A program made the position numbers and the translations under genes. From Sphingobium sp. (GTDB taxonomy: Bacteria; Pseudomonadota; Alphaproteobacteria; Sphingomonadales; Sphingomonadaceae), in the NCBI GenBank assembly GCA_022652485.1, contig JALCRK010000006.1:1-64000 (forward strand): a stretch of 64,000 nucleotides of DNA, given 5' to 3'. Shown here piece by piece: positions 7,182 to 21,662 of this stretch (position 1 is its first letter; each line of letters starts with the position of its first letter). Below the pieces are notes generated by a model. That model did not search any database, was not told where the DNA came from, and worked only from the letters and a program-made list of their open reading frames with translations.

Positions 7182-7448
7182 ATGACCATCGCCAAAGTCG
7201 CCGCAGCCGCCGCGCTCGCCTTCACCCTCGCAGGCGCCGCCGCCCATGCCGCCGACAAGCCGAAGACCGAGAAATGCTACGGCGTTGCCCTCGCCGGCAA
7301 GAACGACTGCAAGGCGGGCGCGGGCACGAGCTGCGCCGGCACCTCGGTCAAGGATTATCAGGGCAATGCCTGGAAGGCCGTGAAGGCGGGCACCTGCACC
7401 AAGATCAAGACCCCCAAGGGCATGGGATCGCTGACGCCCCGCGTCTGA
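7182..7448 (+). CDS. bufA1: Bufferin precursor peptide, DUF2282 type
   Basis: This 88-residue protein has a Sec signal (about residues 1-24, Ala-rich, ending AAHAAD) and the DUF2282 signature [17 protein letters not shown], then SCAGTS and a Tyr-Gln-Gly-Asn stretch ending in AGTCTKI. Four cysteines are spaced across the mature peptide. DUF2282 peptides are bufferin precursors, modified by BufB/BufC and exported to the periplasm to buffer copper. CAGGAG at 7168-7173 sets the start. It is divergent from sigF and shares no bufBC of its own, so it presumably relies on the pair encoded at 3849-5416. Confidence 0.9.
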
Positions 7449-7465
7449 AGCCCCCGGCCCGCTCC

Positions 7466-7495
7466 GGCCCGGACGCCGCCCCCTGCGTCCGGGCC
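7466..7495 (+). other. Intercistronic hairpin between bufA1 and doxX
   Basis: Perfect 11-bp arms GGCCCGGACGC (7466-7476) and GCGTCCGGGCC (7485-7495) flank an 8-nt loop just after the bufA1 stop. There is no T-run. Its likely role is to stabilise or partly terminate the precursor message ahead of doxX. Confidence 0.6.
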
Positions 7496-7522
7496 ATTCC
7501 CCGCACGATAAGGAGACAGGAT

Positions 7523-7993
7523 ATGACGAGGGCATTCACATCGCTTTACGGGCACGCGACCGCCCTTGCCGAGCGCCTGTTGCCGGAGTCGCTGCTGCTG
7601 CTCGTGGCGCGGCTCGGCGTGGCGTCGATCTTCTTTCTATCGGGCCGGTCCAAGGTCGAGGGCTGGTTCACCATTACCGACGGCACGTTCGACCTGTTCG
7701 CGACCGAATATGCGCTGCCTTTGCTGCCACCGCATGTCGCTGCCTATGCCGCCACGATCTCGGAGCATCTTTTCTCCGGTCTGCTGGTGCTGGGGCTGTG
7801 CACGCGGGGTGCGGCGCTTGGTTTGTTGGGTATGACGTTGGTGATAGAAATTTTCGTCTATCCCGATGCGTGGCCGACGCATTTGAGCTGGGCGGGGCTG
7901 CTGTTGCCACTGATCGCCAGGGGAGGCGGCGCGCTGTCGCTCGACCGGATATTCCGCGGGATATGGAGAACCCGCGCGCCACGCGGTTCCTGA
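7523..7993 (+). CDS. DoxX family membrane protein of the bufferin operon
   Basis: This 156-residue DoxX protein has four hydrophobic segments and the family start VARLGVASIFFLSGRSKVEG (about residues 32-51). DoxX genes are regular companions of bufferin precursor genes, where they probably take part in redox handling of the peptide in the inner membrane; the exact activity is not known. AAGGAGA at 7510-7516 sets the ATG. It lies 74 bp after bufA1 under the same sigma-F promoter and is only distantly similar to the DoxX at 897-1334. Confidence 0.88.
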   Translation: MTRAFTSLYGHATALAERLLPESLLLLVARLGVASIFFLSGRSKVEGWFTITDGTFDLFATEYALPLLPPHVAAYAATISEHLFSGLLVLGLCTRGAALGLLGMTLVIEIFVYPDAWPTHLSWAGLLLPLIARGGGALSLDRIFRGIWRTRAPRGS

Positions 7994-8021
7994 TCGATTT
8001 AACCTATATGGAACATTTCTG

Positions 8022-8050
8022 TTGACATCGTAACGCTGATATGGTTTAAG
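8022..8050 (+). promoter_or_regulatory. Candidate sigma-70 promoter of the GTA cluster
   Basis: TTGACA at 8022-8027 is a perfect -35 hexamer. TTTAAG at 8045-8050 at 17-bp spacing is a moderate -10. It is the best-looking promoter ahead of the GTA genes. A weak GC hairpin with five T residues (about 8111-8128) lies between it and the first gene and might attenuate it. Host control by a GafA-like activator cannot be seen from the sequence. Confidence 0.45.
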
Positions 8051-8159
8051 CATAGACACTGAGGAACATTGAGTCGCGCGGCATCGGCGCGAAACGGGGT
8101 CGCGGCCATCGGGCTGGCGGCCCTTTTTCATGACCGATGCGCGCGGAACGCGAGGCGGA

Positions 8160-8762
8160 ATGGCGCGGAAGGGACCGACAGATCGGAACGAGGGCAAAGA
8201 GAACAGGACAAACACCGTGAACGACACCTCCCTGCGCCTCACGCGCGGACAGGGAGGCAGGGGAGCAGGCACACGCGCACAGTTGCGCCGGGTGGGTCGC
8301 CGTATCTGGGACGATGCGCGGAAGGAAGAATTTCTGGCGGTACTCGCCGCCACCTGCAATGTGGAGGAGGCCTGCCGCGCCGTCTCCATGAGCAACCAGG
8401 GCGCCTATAATCTGCGCCTGCGCGATCCGGCCTTCGCGGCGGCGTGGAAGCGGGCGGTGGAACAGGGCTATTCCGAGCTGGAGATGCTGCTGCTGCGCCA
8501 GTCGCTGCATGGCAGCACGACCACTGAGACGGTGGAGGACGGCGAGGGCCAGTGCAAGCAGATCAAGACGGTGCACAGCTACCCGCACACCATAGCGCTG
8601 AGGCTGTTTCAGGCGCACCAGAGTACGGCAGAAGCCGTCCGCGCGGAACAGGATGCCTCTCCCGACAGCGATCAGATACGGGCCGAGATCCAGGTGCGGA
8701 TCGCGGCGATGCGCGTGCGCAGCGGCGGCGCAAAGGCCGGGCGCGAGGGCGAGGAATCATGA
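8160..8762 (+). CDS. GTA small-terminase-like protein (g1 position)
   Basis: This 200-residue protein precedes the large terminase and overlaps it by 4 bp. Residues about 58-95 form a helix-turn-helix-like segment (CNVEEACRAVSMSNQGAYNL then LRDPAFAAAWKRAVEQGY) like those of small terminases, and the C-terminus is long and helical (about 155-200). In GTAs the small terminase helps load host DNA into capsids without a specific pac site. The start is uncertain: ATG at 8160 has GAGG at 8152-8155; an ATG at 8130 and a GTG at 8217 are in the same frame. Assignment rests on fold-like pattern and position. Confidence 0.72.
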   Translation: MARKGPTDRNEGKENRTNTVNDTSLRLTRGQGGRGAGTRAQLRRVGRRIWDDARKEEFLAVLAATCNVEEACRAVSMSNQGAYNLRLRDPAFAAAWKRAVEQGYSELEMLLLRQSLHGSTTTETVEDGEGQCKQIKTVHSYPHTIALRLFQAHQSTAEAVRAEQDASPDSDQIRAEIQVRIAAMRVRSGGAKAGREGEES

Positions 8763-10084
8763 GCCGCTCGCAATGGGAGGAGCTGGCCGAGTGGCCGCAG
8801 GAACGGCTGGATGCGCTGCTCGATGCGCTGGGCCAAGCCGGGCGCGAGGCGTTGCTGCATGACTGGGCGGTGCAGGCGAGGCCCGAGCAACTGCCGCCGC
8901 CCGGAGACTGGCGCATCTGGCTGATGCTCGCCGGGCGGGGCTTCGGCAAGACCCGCTCCGGCGCGGAGTGGGTGCGCGGGATCGCCGAGCGGGACGGGCG
9001 TGCGCGCATCGCGCTGGTGGGGGCGACCCTGCATGACGCGCGCAGCGTGATGGTGGAGGGAGAAAGCGGGCTTCTCGCCATTGCTCCGCGCTGGGACCGG
9101 CCGATCTGGCATCCCGCGCTCAAGCGGCTGATCTGGAAATCGGGCGCGCAGGCGATGCTGTTCGGCGCCGCCGAGCCGGAGAGCCTGCGTGGACCGCAGT
9201 TTACGCATGGCTGGGCGGACGAGCTGGCGAAATGGCCCTATGCGGAAATGGCGTGGGACAATCTGATGATGGGCCTCCGCCTCGGCGCGAATCCCCGCGT
9301 GCTGGTGACGACGACGCCACGCCCGGTGCCGCTCGTCCGGCGGCTGGTGGGGCAGGCGGGCGTCGCCCTGACGCGGGGCGGAACGCGGGATAACCGGGCG
9401 CATCTCGCCCCCGGCTTTCTCGCGGCGATGGAACGCGATTATGGCGGCAGTGCGCTGGGGCGGCAGGAGCTGAACGGAGAGCTGATCGACGAGCCGGAGG
9501 GCGCGCTGTGGACCAGAGCGCTGATCGAGCGGCTGCGGTTGCGGCGGGAGGCGCTGTGGAATGGGGGTGACAGCCCGTTTGCAAGAGTGGTGGTGGCGGT
9601 CGATCCGCCCGCGACATCGAACGGCGACGCCTGCGGCATCGTCGTCGTGGGGCTGGGGCTGGATGGCCTCGGCTATGTGATCGAGGACGCGACCGTCGCC
9701 AAGGCACGACCGGAAGGCTGGGCGGCGGCAGTGGCGGCGGCAGCGGCGCGGCATGGCGCGGACCGGGTGATCGCGGAGGCCAATAATGGCGGCGAGATGG
9801 TCTCCTCCGTGCTGCGTGCGGCGGAGGCGGGGCTGCCGGTGCGGATCGTCCACGCCAGCCGGGGCAAAGTGGCGCGAGCAGAGCCGGTCGCGGCGCTCTA
9901 TGAGCGCGGGCGGGTTCGGCATGTCGGCGCGTTTCCCGATCTGGAGGATCAGCTTTGCGGCTTGATGATCGGTGGCGAATATCAGGGGCCAGGCCGCTCG
10001 CCGGACCGAGCCGACGCGCTCGTCTGGGCGATCACGGAACTGATGCTGGTGCGGCGCGCGCCCTATGCGGTGCGCAGCCTGTGA
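8759..10084 (+). CDS. GTA large terminase (g2)
   Basis: This 441-residue protein is the packaging motor. The ATPase domain has the Walker A-like LMLAGRGFGKTRSGAEW (about residues 56-72) and a WADELAKW segment in the Walker B region (about 154-161). The C-terminal nuclease domain starts with VVVAVDPPAT (Asp catalytic, about residue 281) and has the later acidic residues expected of an RNase H-like fold. It cuts and pumps host DNA into the GTA head. The ATG overlaps the g1 TGA. Length and motifs fit an intact protein. Confidence 0.93.
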   Translation: MSRSQWEELAEWPQERLDALLDALGQAGREALLHDWAVQARPEQLPPPGDWRIWLMLAGRGFGKTRSGAEWVRGIAERDGRARIALVGATLHDARSVMVEGESGLLAIAPRWDRPIWHPALKRLIWKSGAQAMLFGAAEPESLRGPQFTHGWADELAKWPYAEMAWDNLMMGLRLGANPRVLVTTTPRPVPLVRRLVGQAGVALTRGGTRDNRAHLAPGFLAAMERDYGGSALGRQELNGELIDEPEGALWTRALIERLRLRREALWNGGDSPFARVVVAVDPPATSNGDACGIVVVGLGLDGLGYVIEDATVAKARPEGWAAAVAAAAARHGADRVIAEANNGGEMVSSVLRAAEAGLPVRIVHASRGKVARAEPVAALYERGRVRHVGAFPDLEDQLCGLMIGGEYQGPGRSPDRADALVWAITELMLVRRAPYAVRSL

Positions 10085-10113: not shown

Positions 10114-10191
10114 ATGTCCATTCTGTGCAAGGCCGATGAAAAGAGCTATGAGATGCAGGTGGGCAAGATGCAAGACAGGCCGGGGCCGTGA
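10114..10191 (+). CDS. Short ORF coupled to the luxR-type gene
   Basis: A 25-residue ORF (MSILCKADEKSYEMQVGKMQ...) starts at an ATG with AGGA at 10102-10105 and ends at TGA 10189-10191, which overlaps the GTG start of the LuxR-type gene (GTGA). An in-frame ATG at 10087 would make it 34 residues. It may be a real micropeptide or a leader whose translation feeds ribosomes to the poorly initiated GTG. I recognise no family. Confidence 0.4.
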   Translation: MSILCKADEKSYEMQVGKMQDRPGP

Positions 10192-10901
10192 ACCTCAAGG
10201 TTGCCGAGATCAGCGCGGTGGAAACCCCTGCGGAGCTGTGGCGGGTGGCGCGGCGCTATTATCACGCGCTGGGCTTCAGGGCGCTCGCCTATTTTGTCGC
10301 CAGCAGAGGCGGCACCGGCGCGCGCGGCGGTTTCAACATCATTCATCGCGGCTGGCAGTCTGAAGTGCGGAATGCCTATATCGACGAGGGCTGGGGGGAG
10401 AGGAACGTCTTTGCGCCGCTGGTGATCGCGCGCGGGGCTCCGGTGCGCTGGACGGACGTTACATCGCAGATCGTACCCGATGCGGAGCAGCAGGCGTTCA
10501 TTGACCGGATGCGCGCCGCCGAGCTCGGCGATGGCTATGCGCTCCCGGTGTTCGGGCCGATGGGGCGCAATGGTTTTCTCGCGGTTGGCCGACCATTGAC
10601 GGAGCAGGTGCTGGATGAAGCCCCTGTCGAGGAAATGCACATGGTCGCGCAGGCGACGCATATGCGGCTGCTCCAGCTGCTGCCCGAGCGGGCGCATCTG
10701 GAAAAGCCGCTGTCGACGCGGGAGCTGGAAATTCTCGACTGGGTGGCGCGCGGCAAAAGCAACAGCGTGATCGCCGACATCCTCTCGCTCTCCGGCGCGA
10801 CGGTGGATACCTATTTGCGACGGATTTACGAGAAGCTCGATGTGTCGGACAGGACATCGGCGGCGGTGGTCGGCGTCGGCATGGGGCTGATCGCCGCCTG
10901 A
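10188..10901 (+). CDS. LuxR-type regulator inside the GTA cluster
   Basis: This 237-residue protein has an N-terminal autoinducer-binding-like domain (about residues 12-150) and a C-terminal LuxR helix-turn-helix (LSTRELEILDWVARGKSNSV ... TVDTYLRRIYEKL, about 173-225). The pocket is non-canonical: where classic acyl-homoserine-lactone receptors have W-x3-Y ... DP, I read V-x3-Y ... NV, with only the later PVRW conserved. It may therefore sense another ligand or none. No luxI-like synthase occurs in the window. It sits between the terminase and portal genes in the same direction, so it is probably co-expressed with the GTA and could control it. Confidence 0.88.
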   Translation: MNLKVAEISAVETPAELWRVARRYYHALGFRALAYFVASRGGTGARGGFNIIHRGWQSEVRNAYIDEGWGERNVFAPLVIARGAPVRWTDVTSQIVPDAEQQAFIDRMRAAELGDGYALPVFGPMGRNGFLAVGRPLTEQVLDEAPVEEMHMVAQATHMRLLQLLPERAHLEKPLSTRELEILDWVARGKSNSVIADILSLSGATVDTYLRRIYEKLDVSDRTSAAVVGVGMGLIAA

Positions 10902-10923
10902 TCGGCAGATATTGATTTTCTTC

Positions 10924-11028
10924 GTCATCCCGGACTTGATCCGGGATCCAGAGTCCCACGCGCTGCGCAACTCAGCTTCCGGGATGACGCGTAGGCCAAG
11001 TAGCCTGAGACCCCAGCCTTCGCTGGGG
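10924..11028. repeat. Palindromic repeat element, g2/luxR-g3 junction
   Basis: Outer arms GTCATCCCGGA (10924-10934) and TCCGGGATGAC (10978-10988) enclose an inner hairpin CCCGGA/TCCGGG. A second hairpin follows, CCCCAGC (11011-11017) with GCTGGGG (11022-11028). The same style of element recurs at other junctions of the GTA cluster. Confidence 0.75.
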
Positions 11029-11067
11029 TGACGCGGGTGAACTTCATACTCCAACGGAGTGATTTGC

Positions 11068-12201
11068 ATGAAATTGTTCGGATGGAAGGGGGCGGCGGCG
11101 CCGCGCCCGGTGTTGTCGCGCGCGTCGTCGGTGGGCGTCGGGATGCTGGGCGAATGGCCCTCGGGATATGAGGCGCAGGTGCGTGCGGCGGTGAGCGCCA
11201 ATCCGGTGGCCCAGCGCGCGGTGCGCCTGGTGTCCGAGGCGTGCGGCGGCGCGGCGGTCATCGCCAGCGGGGCGAGCGCGACGGAAAATGCGCGGGCGCT
11301 CGATCTGGTGCGCCATGTCTCGGCCGGGCAGGGCTTGATCGAGACGCTGGCGCTGCATCTGCTGTTGCACGGCAACGGCTTCGTGCAGATCATCCCCGAT
11401 GCGGACGGCGAGCCTTACGAGCTGTTCGCGCTGCGCCCGGAGCGGGTGAGCGTCGATTATGACAATAATGGCTGGCCGGTCGGCTATATCTATCGCGTCG
11501 GCGAACGGGTGACGCGGCTCTGGGCCGAGGATGGCCGGGGTCGCACGGCGATCATGCACCTGAAGGCGATCAACCCGCTCGACGATCATCTGGGTCTTGG
11601 CTGCCTCGGCGCGGCATCCGGCCCGGTGGCGATCCACAATGCGGCAACGAGCTGGAACAAGGCGCTGCTCGATAATGCGGCGCGGCCCAGCGGAGCGCTT
11701 GTCTATGACAGCGGCAAGGATGGCGCGGTGCTCTCGGCCGAGCAGTTCGCGCGGCTGAAGGCGGAGATGGAGGCGGCCTATCAGGGCGCGATCAACGCCG
11801 GAAGGCCGATGCTGCTGGAAGGCGGCCTCAAATGGCAGGCGCTCTCCATGACGCCCGCCGAAATGGATTTCGTGGCGCTGAAGGCCTCCGCCGCGCGGGA
11901 GATCGCGCTCGCCTTCGGGGTGCCGCCGATGCTGCTGGGACTGCCCGGCGACAACACCTACGCGAATTATAAGGAGGCGAACAAGGCGCTGTGGCGGCAG
12001 ACGATCCTGCCGCTGATGACGAAGATATTGGGCGGCATCGCGCAAGGACTGCGGCCCGTCTTTCCGGGGCTGGAGCTGATGGTCGACCTCGACAAGGTGT
12101 CGGAGCTGGCGGACGAGCGCAGCGCGCTGTGGGAGCGGGTGAGCGGTGCGGCGTTCCTGAGTGACGAGGAGAAGCGGGCGATGTTGGGCATTGGGGCATG
12201 A
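11068..12201 (+). CDS. GTA portal protein (g3, HK97 family)
   Basis: The 377-residue product matches the HK97-type portal in length and motifs: SANPVAQRAVRLVSEA (about residues 45-60), an internal HLLLHGNGFVQII segment, the INPLDDHLGLG loop and FGVPPMLLGLPGDNTYANY at about 289-307. It forms the dodecameric ring through which DNA enters the capsid. CGGAG at 11055-11059 supports the ATG at 11068. It follows the repeat element rather than overlapping the upstream gene. Confidence 0.93.
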   Translation: MKLFGWKGAAAPRPVLSRASSVGVGMLGEWPSGYEAQVRAAVSANPVAQRAVRLVSEACGGAAVIASGASATENARALDLVRHVSAGQGLIETLALHLLLHGNGFVQIIPDADGEPYELFALRPERVSVDYDNNGWPVGYIYRVGERVTRLWAEDGRGRTAIMHLKAINPLDDHLGLGCLGAASGPVAIHNAATSWNKALLDNAARPSGALVYDSGKDGAVLSAEQFARLKAEMEAAYQGAINAGRPMLLEGGLKWQALSMTPAEMDFVALKASAAREIALAFGVPPMLLGLPGDNTYANYKEANKALWRQTILPLMTKILGGIAQGLRPVFPGLELMVDLDKVSELADERSALWERVSGAAFLSDEEKRAMLGIGA

Positions 12202-12309: not shown

Positions 12310-12621
12310 ATGAGAGAGGCAGATATGCTTGCGGGTCTGGTCGCGCAGGCGGAAGGGCGCGGCGGCGATCTGGTGACGATCCGCGCGCTGGTGGAGGAAG
12401 CGAGCGAGATCGGCGCGGGGCGGGCGCTCGACCGGCTGGGCCTCAGCGACCGCGCGGCGGAAGACGACGTGCGCGAATTGCGCGAGCTGCTCTCCGCCTG
12501 GCGCGACGCCAAGGCCGCGGCGAAGAACGCGATCATCGGCTGGGTCGTGCGGGTGGCGCTGGCGCTGATGCTGCTCGGCATGGCGGTGAAGACGGGGCTG
12601 GTTTCTTTGGTGCGCCCATGA
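12310..12621 (+). CDS. GTA g3.5-type small protein (DUF6127-like)
   Basis: This 103-residue protein lies between portal and protease, the place of the small g3.5 gene of the Rhodobacter GTA. It has a conserved-looking helical region (MLAGLVAQAEGRGGDLVTI, VEEASEIGAGRALDRLGL, VRELRELLSAWRDAK) and ends in one hydrophobic helix (about residues 76-98). The family label DUF6127 is from memory. The ATG at 12310 follows GGAGAAAT. It overlaps the protease gene by 4 bp. Its role in particle assembly is unknown. Confidence 0.75.
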   Translation: MREADMLAGLVAQAEGRGGDLVTIRALVEEASEIGAGRALDRLGLSDRAAEDDVRELRELLSAWRDAKAAAKNAIIGWVVRVALALMLLGMAVKTGLVSLVRP

Positions 12622-13031
12622 GTGTGGCAGAGAGCGGCGTGCGTTTCGCGGGCTATGCCGCGCTGTTCGACCGGCAGGATCGCGGCGGCGACATCATCCG
12701 CAAGGGCGCTTTCGCGCGGGCGATCGCGTGGTGGAAGGGGCGCAAGATCCCGCTGCTGTGGCAGCATCGGCCGGATAGCCCGATCGGCGTGATCGAGAGC
12801 ATGGCGGAGGACGAGCGCGGCTTGCGCGTGATCGGGCGGGTGAGGGCAGATGCCCCGGCGCAGGCGGCGGAAATGCTGAAAGGGGGGCAGGTGAACGGCC
12901 TCTCGTTCGGCTATCGCGTGGCGAGAGCGGACGGACGTTTTCCACGCATTTTGAAGGATCTGGATCTGGTCGAGGTGAGCCTCGTGACATTCCCGATGCA
13001 GCCGGGGGCGCGGGTGCATGCGGTGGAGTGA
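12618..13031 (+). CDS. GTA prohead protease (g4, HK97 family)
   Basis: The 137-residue HK97-type prohead protease shows its FAGYAALFDRQDRGGDII start, the catalytic His in LLWQHRPDSPIG (about residue 51) and the nucleophilic Ser in VNGLSFGYRV (about 97), followed by DLVEVSLVTFPM. It cleaves the capsid N-terminal scaffold during maturation. The ATG overlaps the stop of the preceding small gene. Confidence 0.93.
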   Translation: MSVAESGVRFAGYAALFDRQDRGGDIIRKGAFARAIAWWKGRKIPLLWQHRPDSPIGVIESMAEDERGLRVIGRVRADAPAQAAEMLKGGQVNGLSFGYRVARADGRFPRILKDLDLVEVSLVTFPMQPGARVHAVE

Positions 13032-13046
13032 GAGATTCTCACTGTC

Positions 13047-13136
13047 GTCACCCTGAACTTGGTTCAGGGTCCATTTCTCCCCATGCGCCGTCACACCCGG
13101 AGGCGCGATGGATGCTGAAACAAGTTCAGCATGACG
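13047..13136. repeat. Palindromic repeat element, g4-g5 junction
   Basis: Hairpin CCCTGAAC (13051-13058) with GTTCAGGG (13062-13069), then TGCTGAA (13113-13119) with TTCAGCA (13125-13131), with outer GTCA and TGAC ends. It belongs to the same general class of bipartite GTCA...TGAC elements as the other GTA junction repeats but with different arm sequences. Confidence 0.7.
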
Positions 13137-13155
13137 ATGAGGTGACGATTGAACG

Positions 13156-13182
13156 AGGCGGTCCTTTGGTCCGCCTTTTTTT
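13156..13182 (+). terminator. Intrinsic terminator-like hairpin ahead of the capsid gene
   Basis: AGGCGG (13156-13161) and CCGCCT (13171-13176) form a hairpin followed by a run of seven T residues (13176-13182). It lies 34 bp upstream of the capsid ATG and inside the GTA cluster. It could stop read-through from early genes or act as an attenuator. Confidence 0.7.
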
Positions 13183-13215
13183 GTGTCCAAACGGGCAAAA
13201 ACGCAGGAGAAGCCT

Positions 13216-14358
13216 ATGTATGAAGTGAAAGCCGATGCGCTGGAGGAGAGCTTTGACGCGCTCGCCCAGGCGGAGAAGATTACCACGCTGGAGGCGGACA
13301 TCGCCGCGCTGAAAGGCCAGGTGGCGGCGGTGCAGCGAGCGCCGATCATTCGCCCGGCGCTGGATGGCGTCAAGGGCGCGGAAGTGGACCCGGCGCGCGC
13401 GGCGTTCGTCGACAAATATCTCCGCATGGGTCTGGAGACGGGGCTGGAGCTGAAGAGCTTCACCGGGGCCAGCCAGGCTGCGGGCGGCTATGCGGTGCCG
13501 CGCGAGATCGACGCGATGATCGAGACGTTCCTCAAGGCGACCTCGCCGATCCGCAGCATCGCCAATGTGGTGAGGGTCGGCAGCGCGGGCTATCGCAAGC
13601 TGGTGACGACCGGCGGCACGCCGTCCGGCTGGGCGACGGAAACCGCCACCCGCCCCGAAACCGGCACGCCGACCTATAGCGAGATCGTGCCGCCGTGGGG
13701 CGATCTTTACGCCAACCCTTCCGCCAGCCAGACAATGCTGGATGACTCCGCATTCGATGTCGAAAGCTGGCTCGCGGGCGAGGTGGCGATGGAGTTTGCC
13801 CGTGCGGAAGGCGCGGCGTTCGTCAACGGCACCGGCACCAGCCAGCCCAAGGGGTTCCTGACCTACACCACCACCAACGAGATCGACAGCATCCGCGCGT
13901 TCGGCACGATCCAGTATGTCGCGGCGGGCGCGGCAGGCGGTTTCGTGGCATCGAACCCGCAGGACAAGCTGGTCGATCTGGTGCAGGCGTTGAAGGCGCC
14001 CTATCGCCAAGGTGCGGCCTGGGTGATGAACGCGAGCACGCTTGCGGTGATCCGCAAGTTCAAGACCTCGGACGGCGCGTTCATGTGGCAGCCCGCTCTG
14101 GCGGCGGATCAGCCCGCGACCTTGCTCGGCTATCCGGTGATCGAGGCGGCGGACATGCCGGACATCGCGGCAAACAGCCTCTCGATCGCGTTCGGCAACT
14201 TCCGCCACGGCTACGTCATTACCGAGCGCAACGAGACCAGCGTGCTGCGCGATCCCTACAGCAACAAGCCCTATGTGAACTTCTATTCGGTGAAGCGCAT
14301 CGGCGGCGCCGTGGTGAACAGCGAGGCGATTAAATTGATGAAGTTTTCGGTCTCGTAA
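13216..14358 (+). CDS. GTA major capsid protein (g5, HK97 fold)
   Basis: The protein (380 aa) has an N-terminal coiled-coil scaffold (about residues 10-40, ALAQAEKITTLEADIAALKG), a cleavage-prone linker, and the HK97 capsid body beginning at about GLELKSFTGASQAAGGYAVP. Typical later features are ETATRPETGTP, FVNGTGTSQPKGFL and ATLLGYPVIEAADMP. The protease at 12618-13031 should remove the scaffold. AGGAGA at 13203-13208 supports the ATG. It carries no obvious truncation. Confidence 0.95.
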   Translation: MYEVKADALEESFDALAQAEKITTLEADIAALKGQVAAVQRAPIIRPALDGVKGAEVDPARAAFVDKYLRMGLETGLELKSFTGASQAAGGYAVPREIDAMIETFLKATSPIRSIANVVRVGSAGYRKLVTTGGTPSGWATETATRPETGTPTYSEIVPPWGDLYANPSASQTMLDDSAFDVESWLAGEVAMEFARAEGAAFVNGTGTSQPKGFLTYTTTNEIDSIRAFGTIQYVAAGAAGGFVASNPQDKLVDLVQALKAPYRQGAAWVMNASTLAVIRKFKTSDGAFMWQPALAADQPATLLGYPVIEAADMPDIAANSLSIAFGNFRHGYVITERNETSVLRDPYSNKPYVNFYSVKRIGGAVVNSEAIKLMKFSVS

Positions 14359-14371
14359 GCGGGAATATTTG

Positions 14372-14398
14372 TTCGCGCGGAGGCGCGGAGGCGCAGAG
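14372..14398 (+). repeat. 27-nt direct repeat, copy 1 (after g5)
   Basis: A 27-nt G-rich sequence beginning TTCGCGCGGAGGCG is identical, on the same strand, to 17799-17825. It contains tandem GCGCGGAG units. Both copies lie immediately downstream of a GTA structural gene stop codon. Confidence 0.8.
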
Positions 14399-14530
14399 GG
14401 GGCGTGCGGCCTTTCTGCGTTATCCGTCGTCTCCGGGTTTTGATGGTGATGGGCCTTCGGCCCTTTGGCTCCCCTGAACTGGCCTCCTCCATTGCCCAAT
14501 GGGGGAGGTCTTTCGTTGCGGGAGGGTGGA

Positions 14531-15091
14531 ATGCAGGGGGCGCAGGCCATGAGTGTGAACATGACAGCGGTGAGCCAGCCGATCGTCGATGCGGGCATCG
14601 CCGAGACGAAGGAATGGCTGCGGATCGACACCGCGAACGATGACGCCACGATCGAGGCGCTGGTGCGCGCCGCAATCGGCATGGCGGAGGATTTCTGCGG
14701 GCAGAGGATGTTCGCCCGCGCCGGGGTGGAGGTGCTGACGCTGCCCTATGAATGGACGCGGCTGCGCGCCTGCCCGGTGAGCGCGATCACGGCGGCGCGG
14801 GCGCTGGCGGGTAATGGCACAACGAGCGCATTGGCGGGGGGCAGCTATGCGACCGACATCACCGGCGACGGCGATGGCTGGGTGCGTGTGGGTCTCTCGC
14901 GCAGCGAGACGCGGCTGGAGCTGGACATCGTGGCAGGTATGGCGGCGGACTGGCCGAGCCTGCCCGAAGCCTTGCGACAGGGGATCGTCCGCCTCGCCGC
15001 GCATCTCTTCACCGAGCGGGAGAACAGCGACCCGCCGCCCGCCATCGTGACGGCATTGTGGCGCCCCTGGCGCAGGATGCGGATCGCATGA
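14531..15091 (+). CDS. GTA head-tail connector (g6)
   Basis: This 186-residue protein fits the head-tail connector family: IAETKEWLRIDTANDDATIE and LVRAAIGMAEDFCGQRMF at about residues 23-63, then a beta-rich core. The connector binds beneath the portal ring. GGAGGGTGG at 14521-14529 is directly before the ATG at 14531; a second ATG at 14549 is possible. It overlaps the next gene by 4 bp. A GGGCC-TTC-GGCCC hairpin lies at about 14452-14464 upstream. Confidence 0.87.
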   Translation: MQGAQAMSVNMTAVSQPIVDAGIAETKEWLRIDTANDDATIEALVRAAIGMAEDFCGQRMFARAGVEVLTLPYEWTRLRACPVSAITAARALAGNGTTSALAGGSYATDITGDGDGWVRVGLSRSETRLELDIVAGMAADWPSLPEALRQGIVRLAAHLFTERENSDPPPAIVTALWRPWRRMRIA

Positions 15092-15291
15092 GAGGGGTGA
15101 TGGAAAGCGCCGCGCGCGCCGGTGAACGCAGGGCCGAGCGCCATCGCCGCGCCATTGCCGATGAGGCGGATGCGCTGCCCGGCGTTCATGCCAGTGTTGC
15201 GGGCGAGGATGTGCTGATCGAGGGGCGTGGGCTGCTCGACCGCTGGCTGAGCGACGCCCGCCTGCGGAATATCGGGAGGGCGGGGATATGA
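15088..15291 (+). CDS. Small protein in the GTA g7 (neck/head completion) position
   Basis: A 67-residue, strongly basic then amphipathic protein with overlapping start and stop codons on both sides. Its place between the connector and the DUF3168 protein is that of g7, the head-completion or adaptor protein, but it is shorter than the roughly 110 residues I recall for the Rhodobacter protein. The C-terminal part (GEDVLIEGRGLLDRWL) is the most structured-looking. The role is inferred from synteny only. Confidence 0.6.
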   Translation: MRGVMESAARAGERRAERHRRAIADEADALPGVHASVAGEDVLIEGRGLLDRWLSDARLRNIGRAGI

Positions 15292-15683
15292 ATGCGGATG
15301 CCGATATTCGCGCGGCGCTGGTGAGCCTGTTGCAGGGCGATGCCGCCCTCAATGCTCAGGTGAACCGCGTCTATGACGGCGAACCCGCCAAGGCGACGCC
15401 TCCGATGCTGGTCGTGGGGGATGTGCTGGGCAGTGACTGGGCGACCAAGGACAAGGCGGGGCGCGAGCTGCGCCTCTCCCTCACCGTTGAGGACGACCGC
15501 GAGACGCCCGCGCGGATCAGCGGGATCATGCCATTGGCCGACGCGGCGGTGCGGGGCTTGAGCGGCACGATCGGTGCTTGGCGTGTCGGCAGCCTCGTGA
15601 TGATCCGCTCCCGCCTGGTGCGGAACGGCGCGGGACGCTGGGTCGCGGTGATGGATTACCGGGTGCGGGTATTGGCGAATTAG
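15288..15683 (+). CDS. GTA tail terminator-like protein (g8, DUF3168)
   Basis: The 131-residue DUF3168 protein starts with IRAALVSLLQGDAALNAQVN and continues with PPMLVVGDV and the ELRLSLTVEDD strand. Family members cap the tail tube at the neck. The ATG overlaps the upstream TGA. It is the last gene before the opposite-strand insertion. Confidence 0.88.
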   Translation: MNADADIRAALVSLLQGDAALNAQVNRVYDGEPAKATPPMLVVGDVLGSDWATKDKAGRELRLSLTVEDDRETPARISGIMPLADAAVRGLSGTIGAWRVGSLVMIRSRLVRNGAGRWVAVMDYRVRVLAN

Positions 15684-15694
15684 ACGGCTGTGTT

Positions 15695-15762
15695 CCTGCG
15701 CAGGCAGTAACCCAGGGTAGAAGCGCACAGAATAGAATTCTGGGCTCCTGCCTGCGCAGGAG
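15695..15762. repeat. Palindromic repeat element after g8
   Basis: Perfect 14-bp arms TCCTGCGCAGGCAG (15695-15708) and CTGCCTGCGCAGGA (15749-15762) flank a 40-nt loop that itself contains CCCAG...CTGGG. It lies between g8 and the convergent minus-strand gene. Confidence 0.8.
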
Positions 15763-15778
15763 CACGGCATAGAGAGCT

Positions 15779-16084
15779 TTACCCGCCGCTGGCGAAGTTG
15801 TCGGTCATCTGGTCCATATAGCCTTTGACCTGATCTTCCACGTCTGCCGCCGTTTCCTTGTCAGACATGCCGTCTGCCTTGTCCGCAGTGGTCAGCGCGG
15901 CGCGGAATTTCTCTTCCTTGTCGGCGCATTTGGTCTTCAGGCCCGCGAGGAATTCGTCTTTCGCCATTTTCCGGTCGACGGCGTCGTTCGTGTATTGCGT
16001 GAGGCAGCCTGCATAGGCCTGCCGCGCCTTGGGGACGGCATCCGCCGGTGCGGCGGCGGCGAGAATCAGTGCGGTGAATATCAT
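15779..16084 (-). CDS. Small secreted protein on the opposite strand within the GTA
   Basis: This 101-residue protein has a short signal-like N-terminus (MIFTALILAAAAPADA) and a soluble helical body with two cysteines (GCLTQYT and KTKCADKEE), which could form one disulfide. GGAGG lies directly upstream of the ATG at 16084, so translation is credible. It is transcribed against the GTA genes, between g8 and g9. I do not recognise the family. It may be a passenger or a host-side factor. Confidence 0.72.
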   Translation of the reverse strand: MIFTALILAAAAPADAVPKARQAYAGCLTQYTNDAVDRKMAKDEFLAGLKTKCADKEEKFRAALTTADKADGMSDKETAADVEDQVKGYMDQMTDNFASGG

Positions 16085-16186
16085 AGCAACCCCTCCATAG
16101 CCCCATATGGCTGCATGAATGCTTAACGCATTTTCGCCGCCCTTTTTGATGAAATTCGCGGCTGGCGAATTTCAAACGCTGTGCCA

Positions 16187-16250
16187 GCCCACTCCCCCTC
16201 CCGACCTCCCAATAGTTTACCCTGTCGGGAGGTTGGGAGGGGGAGTGGGC
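16187..16250. repeat. Long inverted repeat with a 16-nt conserved loop (copy 1)
   Basis: Arms GCCCACTCCCCCTCCC (16187-16202) and GGGAGGGGGAGTGGGC (16235-16250) surround inner arms CCTCCC/GGGAGG and a 16-nt loop AATAGTTTACCCTGTC. The loop is the exact reverse complement of that in the element at 23922-23991. A companion hairpin (TGAAATTCGC with GCGAATTTCA, 16150-16174) precedes it. Confidence 0.8.
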
Positions 16251-16282
16251 CGGAGCCGAACCAACCAAAGGAGCATACCCCC

Positions 16283-16690
16283 ATGAGCGTCGAAAAAGGA
16301 AGCGCGTTTTTGCTGAAGATCGGCAATGGCAATGTGCCGTTGACCTACACCACCATCGCCGGGTTGAGGACCACGCAGCTCTCGGTGAGCGGCGAGGCGG
16401 TCAACATCACCAACAAGGGATCGGGCGGCTGGCGCGAGCTGCTCTCCGGCGCGGGGGTGCGCGCGGTGAGCGTGTCCGCCGCCGGGATTTTCACCGGCTC
16501 TGCTGGCGAGGTGAACATCCGCAACCGCGCGCTCGCCGGGGTGATCGACGATTATGAGCTGAGCTTCGAGAGCGGCGAGCGGATGCAGGGCAAGTTCCTC
16601 GTCACCCGGCTCGAATATGCGGGCGATTATAATGGCGAGCGCACCTACACGATCAGCCTCGAAAGCTCCGGCGTGGTGGTGAGCCTGTGA
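16283..16690 (+). CDS. GTA major tail protein (g9)
   Basis: This 135-residue protein is the tail tube subunit: KGSAFLLKIGNGNVPLTYTT at the start, LRTTQLSVSGEAVNITNKGS, and a beta-rich body ending SLESSGVVVSL. AAAGGAG at 16267-16273 supports the ATG. It forms a TGATG junction with the next gene. GTA tails are siphovirus-like, and this protein sets the tube wall. Confidence 0.92.
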   Translation: MSVEKGSAFLLKIGNGNVPLTYTTIAGLRTTQLSVSGEAVNITNKGSGGWRELLSGAGVRAVSVSAAGIFTGSAGEVNIRNRALAGVIDDYELSFESGERMQGKFLVTRLEYAGDYNGERTYTISLESSGVVVSL

Positions 16691-17007
16691 TGGAGCGCAA
16701 TCCTAACACATTGCGCGGCGAGGCGGCTCTGTTCGTGCGCGGCGAGCGGCTGATGCTGCGGCCGACCTTCTCGGCGCTGGTGGCGGCGGAAGAGGAGCTG
16801 GGGCCGCTGTTCGCGCTGGTCGAGCGCGCGGCGGCGGGCGGATTGAAGCTCGCCGAAATGGTGGCGCTGTTCTGGCATTGCCGGTTCGACTGGCCCGATA
16901 CCGTGACGCGCGAGCATGTCGGCGAGGCGGTGGCTTCGCAGGGTCTGGCTGCGGTGACGCCCGCGCTGAAGGCGATACTGGGCCAGATCCTCTCTGGTAG
17001 GGCATGA
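16690..17007 (+). CDS. GTA tail assembly chaperone (g10)
   Basis: The protein (105 aa) matches the gene-transfer-agent tail assembly chaperone family: LRGEAALFVRGERLMLRPTF, AAEEELGPLFALVERAAAGG and FWHCRF. These proteins coat the tape measure during tail assembly. Start and stop overlap neighbours on both sides (TGATG and ATGA). Confidence 0.87.
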   Translation: MERNPNTLRGEAALFVRGERLMLRPTFSALVAAEEELGPLFALVERAAAGGLKLAEMVALFWHCRFDWPDTVTREHVGEAVASQGLAAVTPALKAILGQILSGRA

Positions 17008-17219
17008 GCGGCGGCGCGGCGCACTTCGGCGAGACGGCGCTGCGGCTCGCGGGGCTGGCGGGCTGGCATCTGGGATGGAGCGCGGATCAGTTCTGGAACG
17101 CGACGCCCGCCGAGATGGAGGCGGTGATCGGCGCGATGCTGGGGCAGGATGGCGCTACAGCGGCGGCGCTCGCCCGGCCCGATATGGCAAGATTGCAGGA
17201 GATGTTTCCCGATGGATGA
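17004..17219 (+). CDS. GTA tail assembly chaperone (g10.1)
   Basis: This 71-residue protein resembles the small phage tail assembly chaperone that follows g10: FGETALRLAGLAGWHLGWSA and FWNATPAEMEAVIGAM. In phages such a pair arises by frameshift or as separate genes; here they are separate. It overlaps the tape-measure gene by 8 bp. Confidence 0.85.
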   Translation: MSGGAAHFGETALRLAGLAGWHLGWSADQFWNATPAEMEAVIGAMLGQDGATAAALARPDMARLQEMFPDG

Positions 17220-17793
17220 GGAAATCGACCGGCTGGTGATAGCCGTGCGCGCCGACACGCGGGCCTTTGCAAAGGATGTAGAGGACATGCGCGGCACGCT
17301 GGATGGCCCGCTTGCGGCTGGCGCGGACAAGGCGGGACGCACGATCGAAGCGAGCCTGCTGCGCGCGCTCCGCACCGGCAAATTCGGCTTCGAGGATCTG
17401 GCGCGGGTCGCGCTTTCGGTGCTCGATCAGATTGCGCGGCAGGTGATCCATGCCGGGCTGGACCAGATCGGCGTGTTTGGCGGCGGCGGTGGCGGCGGCG
17501 GATTACTCGGCGGAATCATGAACATTGCCGGGGCGATCTTCGGCGGCGCTCCAGGCAGGGCGACCGGCGGGCCTGTCACTGCTGGCCGCCCCTATCGCGT
17601 GGGCGAAAACGGGCCGGAGCTGTTCGTTCCCGGCAGCCACGGGCGGATCATCGCGGCGGGATCGCAGGCAGGCGGCGGGCGGGATGTGCGGGTGACGATC
17701 AACGTCAACGCGCCGCAATCGGGCGCGCCGGAGGCGCTGGCGAGAAGCGCCCGGCAGATTGCGCGGAATGTGCGGTCGGCGCTGTCGGAATAG
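17212..17793 (+). CDS. GTA tail tape measure (g11)
   Basis: The 193-residue protein is a very short tape measure, as in other GTAs, consistent with a short tail. It has an N-terminal helix (DEEIDRLVIAVRADTRAFAK), a glycine run near residues 87-97 (FGGGGGGGGLLGG), and a conserved RATGGPVTAGRPYRVGENGP motif (about 119-138). It sets tail length and probably helps DNA entry. The start overlaps g10.1. Confidence 0.87.
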   Translation: MDEEIDRLVIAVRADTRAFAKDVEDMRGTLDGPLAAGADKAGRTIEASLLRALRTGKFGFEDLARVALSVLDQIARQVIHAGLDQIGVFGGGGGGGGLLGGIMNIAGAIFGGAPGRATGGPVTAGRPYRVGENGPELFVPGSHGRIIAAGSQAGGGRDVRVTINVNAPQSGAPEALARSARQIARNVRSALSE

Positions 17794-17798
17794 ATTTT

Positions 17799-17825
17799 TT
17801 CGCGCGGAGGCGCGGAGGCGCAGAG
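17799..17825 (+). repeat. 27-nt direct repeat, copy 2 (after g11)
   Basis: Identical to 14372-14398 in sequence and orientation, beginning six bases after the tape-measure stop codon. Between this and the next element (17908) I see no gene. Confidence 0.8.
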
Positions 17826-17907
17826 AGATTGTACTGCGCTGCCGGGTTTTTCCTCCAGTCATGAGGATCAGGGACGGCTTAGCCGTCGGACAGCGCCCCA
17901 TTCGCAG

Positions 17908-17977
17908 GCCGTCATGCCAGCGGAGGCTGGCATCTGGTATCATCGCCTGAGACCCCAGCCTGCGCTGGGGTGACGGC
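17908..17977. repeat. Palindromic repeat element, g11-g12 junction
   Basis: Outer arms GCCGTCA (17908-17914) and TGACGGC (17971-17977) enclose two hairpins: ATGCCAGC with GCTGGCAT (17914-17933) and CCCCAGC with GCTGGGG (17953-17970). It is nearly the same as 12218-12285. Confidence 0.8.
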
Positions 17978-17994
17978 ATTTCTGGACAATTTCT

Positions 17995-20316
17995 ATGACC
18001 TATTGGCTGGCCTCCGCGCGGGGCGGGCAGGAGAGCGGCTTTGTGAAGCGCTTTTCGCCCGCATACTGGACGGTGAATTTTCCGCGCCCGATGATGGCGA
18101 GCGTGGTGACGACCGCGCCGGATGCGCTGCGGGTGGATACGGTGTTCTACGGCTCGGGCGATCTCTGCGGCCTCATCTGGGAGGCGGTGGATCAGTGGGA
18201 TCACCCGCTGCTCGCCTATGAGACGGCGCGGGACTTTCGCAACTGCCAGCTCAGCTTCCGCTGGCGTTCGTCTGGCATCCGCGCGCTCGATCTCGTCAAC
18301 GGGCCGACGCTCACCATCGAGGGGCGGGACGCGGGCGGCAGCCCCCGGAGCTGGTATGTGCGGTTGTGGAACTACGCGTCCGGCTCGCCCACCGACGCGA
18401 CGATCACGCTCGATTTCAATACGTTGAATGGCGGCTACCTGCTTCCGTCAGAGGCTGATCCTGTGTGGGCGGGCGATGTGGACCGCATGTTCATCTCGCT
18501 CGTCCCCACCGGCTATGACGCGGGAAGCACGCAATATGCCACCGGGCAGGCAGGCTGGGTCGAGCTGACCCAGATACGCTGCGATGGGTCCGGCTCGGTG
18601 CTGGAGATTGGTGACGTGATGCTGCCCGAACATGGGCTCGGTATCGCGACGGGCTATGACGATGCCTATAACCAGACGCCGGAGCGGGTACTGCGGCAGA
18701 TCGCGGCGCTCGGCTATCGTGGCGACATCCTGCATTATGTCGGCATGAGCCATTATATGCGGCTCGAACTCAACAGCGGCGCTTATTATGCGAGCCTTGC
18801 GGGCGGGGTGCTGTGCGCGCCGTGCGCGGCGTGGCACGCGGATTTCGCGGCGCGGGCCAAGGCTGCGGGATATGGCGTGATCTGGTCGCTTTCCTATGAG
18901 CTGCTCGATCAGCATACATGGGGCAACTGGAAGCAGCGGGCGGAGGATGGCAGCCCCGCGCTGACGGGCTGGTCTCCGCCGTCCACCTTGCTCTCGCCTG
19001 CGGAAAGCGGGGCGATGGGGTATCTGCGGCAGGTCGGCGCGGCGTTTATCGGCATTGCCGTGGCGGCAGGGCTGGCGCCGCAATTTCAGGTCGGCGAGCC
19101 GTGGTGGTGGGTGATGAGCGACGGGCGCATTTGCCTCTATGACACGGCGGCGGTGGCGGCGTTCGGCGGCAGCCCGGTGAGTATCCCGAACATCCGAGGT
19201 TCCCTGACGACCGCGCAGACCGCGCTGCTCGATCAGGCGGGGGCGCTGCTTGCGAGTTCGACGGCGGCGCTGGTGGCTGCGGTGAAGGCAGTCGCGCCCG
19301 CCACGAAGACGCATCTGCTAACCTATCTGCCGACGGTGCTCGACGCGCAAGCCCCGGAAGCCAAGCGCGCTAACATGCCGACCGGCTGGGCCAGCCCGGC
19401 GTTCGATGTGCTGCAACTGGAGGATTATGACTGGGTGACGGGCGGGCACACGGCGCTGAGCAAGGCGGGCGCGGCGGCAGCGCAGACGCGCCTCGGCTAC
19501 GCACCCGCCGCGCAGCATTATCTTGCGGGTTTCGTGCTCGATAGTGCGAGCGCCGCAACGCAATGGCCGCTGATCGAGGACGCGGCGCTGGCCGGAGCGG
19601 CGCGCGGCGTGGCGCGGAGCTTCATCTGGGCGCTGCCTCAGGTGGTGCGCGACGGCTTCACCCATTTTTCCATCGGCGCAGGAGGCAATATGCAGGCGTT
19701 TGACGATGTGCTCTTTCCGCTCTCCATCGGCAGCCAAGCGAGTGTGACCCCTGCCTTCTCGACCCAGACGGTCGAGAGCCTATCGGGCCATGAACGCCGG
19801 ACATCGGACTGGGCGGACGCGCGGCTGAAGTTCGATGCGGGGCCGGGTGTGCACTCCGAGGCGGATCTGGTGACGCTGGTGGAATTCTTCCGGGCGAGGA
19901 GGGGCGCGGCGCGGGGTTTCCGCTTCAGCGATCCGTTCGACACTCAGAGCGCGCCGCTGGGGCAGGCTGTGAGCGCGGTGGACCAGAGACTGGGGACGGG
20001 CGATGGCGTCACGAGCGAGTTCCGGCTGGCGAAATATTATGGAGCGGGTGTGGACGCGCAGCAGCGTTTCATCACGCGCCCGGTGGCGGGTACGATCCGC
20101 GTTGCGGTGAACGGCGTGGAGCAGACCAGCGGCTGGCTGCATCTGGGCGGCGGGGTGATCGCTTTCACGACAGCGCCGACGAGCGGCGCGGTGCTAACGG
20201 CAGGCTTCCGCTTCGACGTGCCGGTGCGCTTCGCCGAAGACAGCCTTGAGGTGAACCGCGCGACCTTTGCCGCAGGCGAAATGCCTTCGGTGCCGCTGGT
20301 GGAGATCCGCGAATGA
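17995..20316 (+). CDS. GTA g12-type distal tail protein with TIM-barrel-like N-terminal region (DUF2460)
   Basis: This 773-residue protein ends in a DUF2460 domain (about residues 570-770: FDDVLFPLSIGSQASVTPAF ... LVTLVEFFRARRGAARGFRF). The first ~570 residues are extra relative to the ~210-residue Rhodobacter g12. They comprise a beta-rich module (about 1-200) and a barrel-like region (about 205-560) with segments such as LRQIAALGYRGDILHYVG, GYGVIWSLSYELLDQH, FQVGEPWWWVMSDG and FDVLQLEDYDWV, which look like strand ends of a glycosidase-type TIM barrel. The WWW-flanked Glu is a possible catalytic or binding residue. A cell-surface glycan role is inferred. It overlaps g13 by 4 bp. Confidence 0.82.
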   Translation: MTYWLASARGGQESGFVKRFSPAYWTVNFPRPMMASVVTTAPDALRVDTVFYGSGDLCGLIWEAVDQWDHPLLAYETARDFRNCQLSFRWRSSGIRALDLVNGPTLTIEGRDAGGSPRSWYVRLWNYASGSPTDATITLDFNTLNGGYLLPSEADPVWAGDVDRMFISLVPTGYDAGSTQYATGQAGWVELTQIRCDGSGSVLEIGDVMLPEHGLGIATGYDDAYNQTPERVLRQIAALGYRGDILHYVGMSHYMRLELNSGAYYASLAGGVLCAPCAAWHADFAARAKAAGYGVIWSLSYELLDQHTWGNWKQRAEDGSPALTGWSPPSTLLSPAESGAMGYLRQVGAAFIGIAVAAGLAPQFQVGEPWWWVMSDGRICLYDTAAVAAFGGSPVSIPNIRGSLTTAQTALLDQAGALLASSTAALVAAVKAVAPATKTHLLTYLPTVLDAQAPEAKRANMPTGWASPAFDVLQLEDYDWVTGGHTALSKAGAAAAQTRLGYAPAAQHYLAGFVLDSASAATQWPLIEDAALAGAARGVARSFIWALPQVVRDGFTHFSIGAGGNMQAFDDVLFPLSIGSQASVTPAFSTQTVESLSGHERRTSDWADARLKFDAGPGVHSEADLVTLVEFFRARRGAARGFRFSDPFDTQSAPLGQAVSAVDQRLGTGDGVTSEFRLAKYYGAGVDAQQRFITRPVAGTIRVAVNGVEQTSGWLHLGGGVIAFTTAPTSGAVLTAGFRFDVPVRFAEDSLEVNRATFAAGEMPSVPLVEIRE

Positions 20317-21140
20317 GCCTCGCCGACACGATATTGGCGCAGGATCTCGCTGCTTTAGCCTTCTGCTGGCGGCTGGAGCGGCGCGACGGCGTGACCATTG
20401 GCCTCACCAGCCATGACCGCGATCTTGTGATCGGCGGGGTGGTCTATAAGGCCGCGCCAGGGCTGGTGCCGTCCTCCGTCACGCGCGGGATCGGGCTGGA
20501 GCCGGAGAGCATGGACCTGAAAGGCGCGCTCACCAGCGACGCGATCTCGGAGACGGACCTTGCGGCGGGCAAATGGGATGGCGCTGCGCTTGTTCTCGCC
20601 GTCACCGAATGGACCGCGCCGGGGGTGCTATGGCTGGAGATCATGCGCGGCGAACTGGGCGCGGTGGAGCAACAGGGCGAGGCGTTTTCGGTCGAGCTGG
20701 CGGGTCCGGCGGCGGCGCTGCTGAAGCCGGTCGCGCCCGAGACATCGCCGGGGTGCCGCGCGCGGCTCGGCGACAGGGCGTGCCGGGTGGACATGATGCT
20801 GCACCGGCGGGTGGTGAGCGTCTTGGCGGTGGCGAGCGAGGTGGCGAGCGTCACGGGTGGCGGCTTGACGAGTGGTGCTTATGTGTTCGGCCATCTCCGC
20901 TGGCTGGAGGGCGCAAATTGCGGACTCTCCCAGAGCATCGTCGCCAATGATGCGGCCAGCGTGACACTTGCCGAGCCGCCCGCCTTCGCGGTGGCGGCCG
21001 GGACGCGGGCGCTCCTCGTCGAAGGGTGCGACAAGCAGATGGCGACCTGCTCCGCGCGCTTCGCCAATGCGGTGAACTTTCGCGGCGAGCCGTATCTGCC
21101 GGGGATGGATCTGCTCACCCGCTACCCTGGAGCGAATTGA
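20313..21140 (+). CDS. GTA baseplate hub protein (g13, DUF2163)
   Basis: The protein (275 aa) carries DUF2163 features: FCWRLERRDGVTIGLTSHDR near the N-terminus and a conserved C-terminal GCDKQMATCSARFANAVNFR motif. Cysteines at GCRARLGDRACR (about 148-157) and GCDKQMATC (about 237-245) form the four-Cys set that, in the Rhodobacter GTA hub, is proposed to hold an iron-sulfur cluster. The ATG overlaps the g12 stop codon. Confidence 0.9.
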   Translation: MSLADTILAQDLAALAFCWRLERRDGVTIGLTSHDRDLVIGGVVYKAAPGLVPSSVTRGIGLEPESMDLKGALTSDAISETDLAAGKWDGAALVLAVTEWTAPGVLWLEIMRGELGAVEQQGEAFSVELAGPAAALLKPVAPETSPGCRARLGDRACRVDMMLHRRVVSVLAVASEVASVTGGGLTSGAYVFGHLRWLEGANCGLSQSIVANDAASVTLAEPPAFAVAAGTRALLVEGCDKQMATCSARFANAVNFRGEPYLPGMDLLTRYPGAN

Positions 21141-21149
21141 CTCATGGTT

Positions 21150-21223
21150 GTCATGCCAGCGTAGGCTGGCATCCCATGCCTTACTGCCCAGTCGCCGGAG
21201 ATCCCAGCTTTCGCTGGGATGAC
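21150..21223. repeat. Palindromic repeat element, g13-g14 junction
   Basis: GTCATGCCAGC (21150-21160) with GCTGGCAT (21165-21172), then ATCCCAGC (21201-21208) with GCTGGGAT (21213-21220), with outer GTCAT and ATGAC ends. It is the third copy of the CATGCCAGC-type element. Confidence 0.8.
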
Positions 21224-21248
21224 GGATATTTGCGCTGAGGAATATTGC

Positions 21249-21659
21249 ATGAAACGTGGAGACAAAATCGTCGCGGCGGCGCGCGGGCTGATCGGCGTGC
21301 CGTTCCGCCTGCACGGCCGGAGTGCCGCGCATGGCCTCGATTGCATCGGCCTCGCCACGCAGGCGCTTGAGCAGGCAGGGCATGACGGGCTGAGCGGCGG
21401 CATCGTGCCGGTGGCGTATAGCGTGCGCGGCGGGACGGTGGCGCGGTTCGCGGCGGGTATGAGTGCGGCGGGATTGCGGCCCGTGCGGAAGGCGCAGGCA
21501 GGCGACCTCGTGCTGGCGCAGGCGGCGGTGGCGCAGTTTCACCTGATGATCGTGACCGGCGCGGGCCATGTTCACGCCGATGGCGGGCTGGGCCGGGTGG
21601 TCGAGATGCCGGGGCCATCGCCCTGGCCGGTGATCGCGCATTTTCGATGGGGCAGATGA
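21249..21659 (+). CDS. GTA NlpC/P60 peptidase (g14)
   Basis: The 136-residue NlpC/P60-like protein has the catalytic Cys in HGLDCIGLATQ (about residue 32) and His in QFHLMIV (about 98), with a later HADGG. It is the tail-tip cell-wall peptidase that opens the peptidoglycan of the recipient. TGAGGAA at 21235-21241 supports the ATG at 21249. The end of the gene lies 3 bp before g15. Confidence 0.9.
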   Translation: MKRGDKIVAAARGLIGVPFRLHGRSAAHGLDCIGLATQALEQAGHDGLSGGIVPVAYSVRGGTVARFAAGMSAAGLRPVRKAQAGDLVLAQAAVAQFHLMIVTGAGHVHADGGLGRVVEMPGPSPWPVIAHFRWGR

Positions 21660-21662
21660 TTT

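Follow-up and report, generated by a model that had tools for sequence, protein, structure and literature searches.

The window, which here means the whole 64,000-base stretch of DNA that was analysed, corresponds to bases 1-64000 of contig C6 in a Sphingobium genome of 3.06 Mb and 62 contigs, and carries a GTA cluster with a luxR-type gene located inside it (Table 1). The luxR gene is flanked by the large terminase gene (terL, 8552-10084) on the 5′ side and by the portal gene (11059-12201) on the 3′ side, with all three being co-directional. To our knowledge, the LuxR-type GTA regulator of Rhodobacter does not lie within the structural cluster. The surrounding genes form an RcGTA-like cluster with a head and tail set that contains GTA-type tail proteins, the tail genes including TIGR02217, TIGR02218 and megatron-like genes; the matches to GTA_megatron and RcGTA_tape fall under the NCBIfam cut-offs. 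The original prediction of a LuxR-type regulator between GTA terminase and portal is confirmed by the ORF itself, its PF03472 and PF00196 domains, the terL and portal neighbours and the RcGTA-type tail genes. At the head of the cluster, the residues coded by 8220-8759 in the probable terS give no Pfam match, and the true start of terL may lie further downstream than 8552: in a number of relatives the stretch aligned with 8552-8760 is interrupted by in-frame stops, so that the annotated start may be too far upstream. The 773-aa product of gp12 (17995-20316) joins non-contractile tail sheath domains (PF23844, PF23845) to a DUF2460 distal tail domain. Upstream of the cluster, an ORF on the minus strand (6471-7535) is ECF-like, its residues 201-344 containing sigma-70 regions 2 and 4.

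Table 1. Features of the GTA cluster and its luxR-type gene, in positions of the window
Feature	Position	Strand	Basis or remarks
Conserved GTA promoter	8000..8052	+	TAACC-N5-GG, spacer, TTGACA (8022-8027), CGTnACGCT, presumed -10 region
Leader hairpin, terminator-like	8096..8124	+	GC-rich, then T run; 71-nt stretch with z-score -1.68, weak by energy alone
First cluster ORF, probable terS by position	8130..8762	+	Position conserved
Large terminase terL, g2	8552..10084	+	Terminase_6C/6N
luxR-type gene	10188..10901	+	ORF, GTG start, 237 aa
Autoinducer-binding domain	10227..10667 (aa 14-160)	+	PF03472 Autoind_bind, E=3.2e-17
GerE/LuxR helix-turn-helix (HTH)	10707..10868 (aa 174-227)	+	PF00196 GerE, E=4.4e-17
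luxR-portal spacer	10902..11058	+	Inverted repeat 10923-10989 (read in the sequence), presumably REP-like
Portal, g3	11059..12201	+	Phage_portal, 3.2e-71
Rest of cluster: DUF6127, protease, capsid, connector, tail tube, TMP, gp12, gp13, gp14, gp15	12310..23870	+	Domain matches

The combination of the two Pfam domains in one chain identifies the window protein as a LuxR-type regulator, and the alignment shows the HTH residues E178, L182 and G188 to be present, with positions assigned by eye. Among solved structures the best match is CviR (E=1.3e-12). A structure model built from 7 sequences (mean pLDDT 75, pTM 0.63) gives a predicted LuxR fold resembling CviR, LasR, RhlR and TraR, with a TM-score of about 0.5 over the full chain; normalised by target length, the score reaches 0.79 at most, for LasR ligand domains. 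The gene has no cognate luxI adjacent to it and classes as a LuxR solo. The single luxI match of the genome is found on contig C57 beside a luxR-type match, the GTA cluster being on C6, in agreement with the prediction that no synthase is encoded nearby.

Of 94 genomes of the genus, 35 have a luxR match at E<=1e-10 and 84 have a portal match, and many weaker luxR matches represent other paralogues. The fetched loci searched by tblastn place luxR at the GTA locus in 19 genomes, with a total of 20 copies since G325 carries a tandem luxR pair in its terL-portal interval (L130, 12230-14162, minus strand). Group i is composed of eight genomes, the window genome and seven others with LuxR at 61-72% identity, and group ii of 11 genomes at 41-48% identity to the window LuxR. 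The HTH is near-invariant across the GTA-sited copies and their two nearest off-GTA relatives, which are found in G146 and Novosphingobium malaysiense. The 84 portal-bearing genomes yielded 80 loci for examination (G269, G275, G276 and G296 were left out), and luxR lies upstream of the portal in 18 of them; one further genome, G123, has luxR and no portal, hence 19 genomes and 18 portal loci. The terL gene falls outside the fetched stretch in several loci, among the luxR loci in G291, G299, G274 and G303. Such a recurrence of a luxR of this family at the GTA locus, in 18 of 80 cases, is more than chance.

The terL-portal junction is a variable slot, as seen in loci L036-L063, L098-L116 and L163-L202. 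A 112-aa glycine-zipper protein is encoded upstream of the portal in 56 of the 80 loci and at 1.5-2.5 kb upstream in four more (G323, G278, G315 and G332), giving 60 of the 62 luxR-less loci with G248 and G252 as the exceptions, and no locus among the 80 has both luxR and the glycine zipper upstream of the portal. The Pfam match that gives this protein its name (E=0.0053) is under the Pfam cut-offs, as is a match to PaaA2. In group ii the glycine-zipper gene occurs at another place in 8 of 11 genomes, and in group i no match to it was found in any of the eight. The 24 GTA loci examined from other genera have no luxR; six have terL-portal gaps of 31-82 bp and others have unrelated ORFs. Among eight other slot ORFs, Pfam matches are to a ParE toxin, BLUF, an SDH-type protease, GIY-YIG and GNAT, the last two being on the opposite strand, and two have no Pfam match. 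A sporadic occurrence unrelated to GTA clusters did not emerge from this cross-genome comparison, in which the luxR loci group together on the portal tree and the gene keeps to the terL-portal junction.

The ligand pocket was compared at six positions in TraR numbering, W57 (placed by spacing), Y61, D70, P71, W85 and G113, which PMC4338825 lists as conserved. The window copy keeps three of the six, with the substitutions W57V, D70N and P71V. The original prediction of a non-canonical pocket that replaces the W-x3-Y...DP residues therefore holds for W57, D70 and P71 and does not extend to Y61, which is kept along with W85 and G113. Six of the seven closest orthologues have five of the six residues; D70 is found in 7/7, P71 in 6/7 and V57 in 7/7, making D70N and P71V private to the window genome within this set. 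The orthologue of Sphingobium sp. DEHP117, for example, retains D70-P71. None of the 20 GTA-sited copies has W57, and neither do the off-GTA relatives of G146 and N. malaysiense. Group ii copies have E or Q at position 57 and I at 71, with the exception of the G325 tandem pair, which has V57/I71 and I57/P71 and of which the copy adjoining the portal is without W57, W85 and G113. As W57 alone is lost in every GTA-sited copy, a wholesale rebuilding of the pocket is ruled out. Gan et al. (PMC4288048) describe W57V, along with further substitutions, in LuxR proteins of sphingomonads, and the words terminase, portal and phage are absent from the main text of that article. The only changes that point to a different ligand are the loss of W57 in the GTA-sited copies and of D70 in the window copy, suggesting that such a ligand may be bound. 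Having lost the W57 contact as well as D70-P71, the window protein is unlikely to act as a classical AHL receptor.

On the portal tree with 16 luxR rows, all 16 fall in one fork (SH-aLRT 86). With 18 luxR rows, the tree has two luxR groups that are each well supported, their join being unresolved and the luxR-less side having a support of 85, and no luxR-less genome is placed among the 18 luxR loci. The branching order of the luxR tree (37 rows) matches the portal tree largely, not wholly. The GTA-sited label changes twice on the luxR tree because the off-GTA pair of G146 and N. malaysiense is nested inside, and G325b forms a long branch. The gene may either have been gained or be older and have been replaced elsewhere. 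None of the 20 GTA-sited copies is truncated, their lengths being 235-240 aa. Pairwise Nei-Gojobori dN/dS, which was calculated for 19 chosen pairs at high dS and does not tell constraint before a gene loss from constraint after it, is 0.03-0.25 for luxR in 16 of the pairs; set aside are the near-identical G271/G171, the saturated G292/G268 and the off-GTA G055/G070 at 0.04. The window luxR compared with G302, G263 and G317 has values of 0.18-0.24. In the same 16 pairs the HTH gives 0.01-0.12; its constraint exceeds that of the ligand domain in 15 pairs and equals it in G313/G303. As judged from these ratios, luxR is under purifying selection.

An alignment of 19 loci covered 13 with luxR, three of Sphingobium without it and three from other genera. 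Ahead of the first gene, 18 of them share the arrangement of TAACC-N5-GG, a TTGACA-like element and CGTnACGCT with small variations, and in the remaining one, G288, the GTA promoter was found by direct search. In G317 as well as G263 the -35 is diverged. A strict sigma-70 scan of the window did not pick up this promoter. A strict form of the pattern is present in 74 of the 94 genus genomes, once in each except G315, and is rarer with luxR (11 of 19 genomes compared with 63 of 75 others, Fisher p=0.025 with relatedness ignored), suggesting that promoter and luxR may not be independent. The eight misses in luxR genomes include contig ends in G291 and G302 and near-matches in G263, G317, G274, G288, G300 and G325, and contig ends together with one-letter variants explain part of the rarity. 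A separate block directly upstream of luxR, GCTTGCTTTTG...GGCGGAC, is conserved in 8 of 10 group ii rows, and its exact motif occurs in 4 of 14 genomes, each time at luxR only. In group i, the window included, neither this own-promoter motif nor a sigma-70 site was seen upstream of luxR, and no palindrome widely common to the luxR upstream regions was found.

Four luxR genomes (G123, G274, G299 and G303) have no terS-terL at the GTA locus. In these the GTA promoter, which in G274 is a variant outside the strict pattern, lies about 290-380 bp upstream of luxR, and luxR is the first gene found behind it. The stretches between the promoter and the luxR block do not align beyond chance in the four loci and have no shared scar. 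G303 pairs on the luxR tree with G313, where a local terL is present, indicating that the local terS-terL pair was lost at least twice. A short promoter-portal distance is found in 2 of 10 measured luxR loci and in 0 of 52 others (p=0.024), the luxR figure rising to 4 of 12 (p=0.0008) once G123 and G274 are included manually; this feature goes with the missing terminase, and the count is one of genomes, not events. Each of the four genomes has a diverged terS-terL pair elsewhere (terL 41-50%), and the pairs away from the GTA locus (L205, L206, L208 and L209) have a common GTA-type promoter core, CCTTGACATCGnnACGCTGnTCTGGnACAAA, upstream. Contig C13 of G303 (L207) also contains a second GTA-like head block with terL, portal, protease and capsid at 40-53% identity. 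The loss of terL from the locus was rejected as proof of a dead GTA since all four genomes have the diverged pair elsewhere, and for the same reason only G123 and G300 are taken as broken. The portal, the protease and most of the capsid are gone from G123, the genes from portal to gp15 are gone from G300 except for a gp6 fragment, another portal match was not found in either genome, and luxR is full length in both. That luxR persists in G123 and G300 may be a sign that their decay is recent. In the split-terminase genomes GTA production may continue, with the promoter kept for the head genes.

The explanation tentatively preferred here, with a confidence somewhat short of even, is a LuxR solo that has been kept within a clade, is read with the GTA genes and acts mainly on other targets. 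A LuxR-solo-type regulator would have taken the variable terL-portal slot early in one part of Sphingobium and been inherited with the GTA cluster since. It would be co-transcribed from the GTA promoter with the late genes, and in most group ii genomes it probably also has its own promoter just upstream. The constant position of luxR behind the GTA promoter makes co-expression with the late genes plausible. The main LuxR targets would most likely be its own promoter and host genes, not the GTA promoter, in which case GTA induction would turn on a second regulon. Control of GTA expression by LuxR is not supported by the sequence comparison, since the promoter is recognisable without luxR, the slot is variable and off-GTA relatives have a near-identical HTH; with the full-length luxR in loci with deleted head genes, these points make it less likely that LuxR is essential at the GTA promoter and favour targets elsewhere. 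A dedicated GTA regulator would bind the GTA promoter or leader, act in feedback once the late genes are read and couple GTA output to a signal. This is considered unlikely, as the promoter is recognisable in luxR-less Sphingobium and in other genera, no luxR-specific element was seen in it by eye, off-GTA relatives have a near-identical HTH, and G123 and G300 keep luxR despite their deletions. Its case is made by the grouped retention within the cluster, by the persistence of luxR behind the GTA promoter at loci that have lost the terminase, by the rarer strict promoter form in luxR genomes, which could speak for GTA control by LuxR, and by GtaR, a LuxR-type protein of Rhodobacter capsulatus for which binding to the gafA promoter, as well as to the promoter of its own gene, is described (PMC6363796).

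A moron-like passive cargo, sitting in an insert-tolerant junction with its own promoter and ordinary host duties so that reading from the GTA promoter is irrelevant, would fit the glycine zipper, other ORFs or nothing found in this slot elsewhere, the conserved upstream motif of group ii and the existence of off-GTA relatives. It is rated as rather unlikely because the 18 luxR loci have no luxR-less genome among them on the portal tree and an own-promoter signal was not seen in group i. An ordinary receptor for the cell's own or its neighbours' AHLs appears very unlikely: the autoinducer-binding fold, the D70, Y61 and W85 kept in most orthologues and the one luxI match of the genome speak for it, but W57 is lost throughout the GTA-sited copies, the window copy has D70N and P71V, and the luxI gene has a luxR-type neighbour of its own. 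Autoind_synth matches are present in 70 of the 94 genus genomes, and a luxI match is absent from 8 of 19 luxR-bearing genomes compared with 16 of 75 others (p=0.08), which is a further point against an AHL receptor; six of the eight group i genomes are without one.

The preferred LuxR solo with targets outside the GTA promoter resembles other LuxR solos and the AHL-binding proteins TraR, CviR, RhlR and SdiA in its autoinducer-binding domain and GerE HTH, its fold and, as in solos, the absence of an adjacent luxI. It differs from TraR, CviR, RhlR and SdiA in the replacement of W57 in the GTA-sited copies, the loss of D70-P71 in the window copy and its site within a GTA cluster. The likeness to GtaR is that of a LuxR-type protein linked to GTA control. 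Phage-encoded LuxR receptors, which control lysis-lysogeny (PMC9894119, PMC13345283), are also carried by a phage-like element, and the Sphingobium luxR occupies the terL-portal interval of a GTA cluster. The Caulobacter GTA cluster is described in PMC11150451 as being under GafY, IHF and the antiterminator GafZ, with a putative GafZ element between -35 and -10; both systems have a promoter at the cluster start that contains an element between its -35 and -10, as well as early terminators, and by this analogy the Sphingobium promoter elements may be related to the GafY/GafZ scheme. In the titles and abstract openings of the GTA literature on LuxR, quorum sensing and Sphingobium/Sphingomonadales, no description of a LuxR gene inside a GTA cluster was found.

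A more far-reaching and rather doubtful proposal is that GTA induction in this part of the genus turns on a built-in LuxR with targets outside the particle genes, reprogramming the producer cell, and that promoter and luxR would be kept as a module after loss of terminase or head genes. GTA control is known in few hosts, and the luxR-bearing part of Sphingobium can be tested directly, with its close luxR-less relatives as a natural control. Laboratory isolates that carry the gene include Sphingobium fluviale CHR27 (L083) and Sphingobium sp. DEHP117 (L082). Comparing these loci also reveals a GTA promoter common to Sphingobium and the three other-genus loci, the variable terL-portal slot and the loci with a diverged terminase pair elsewhere.
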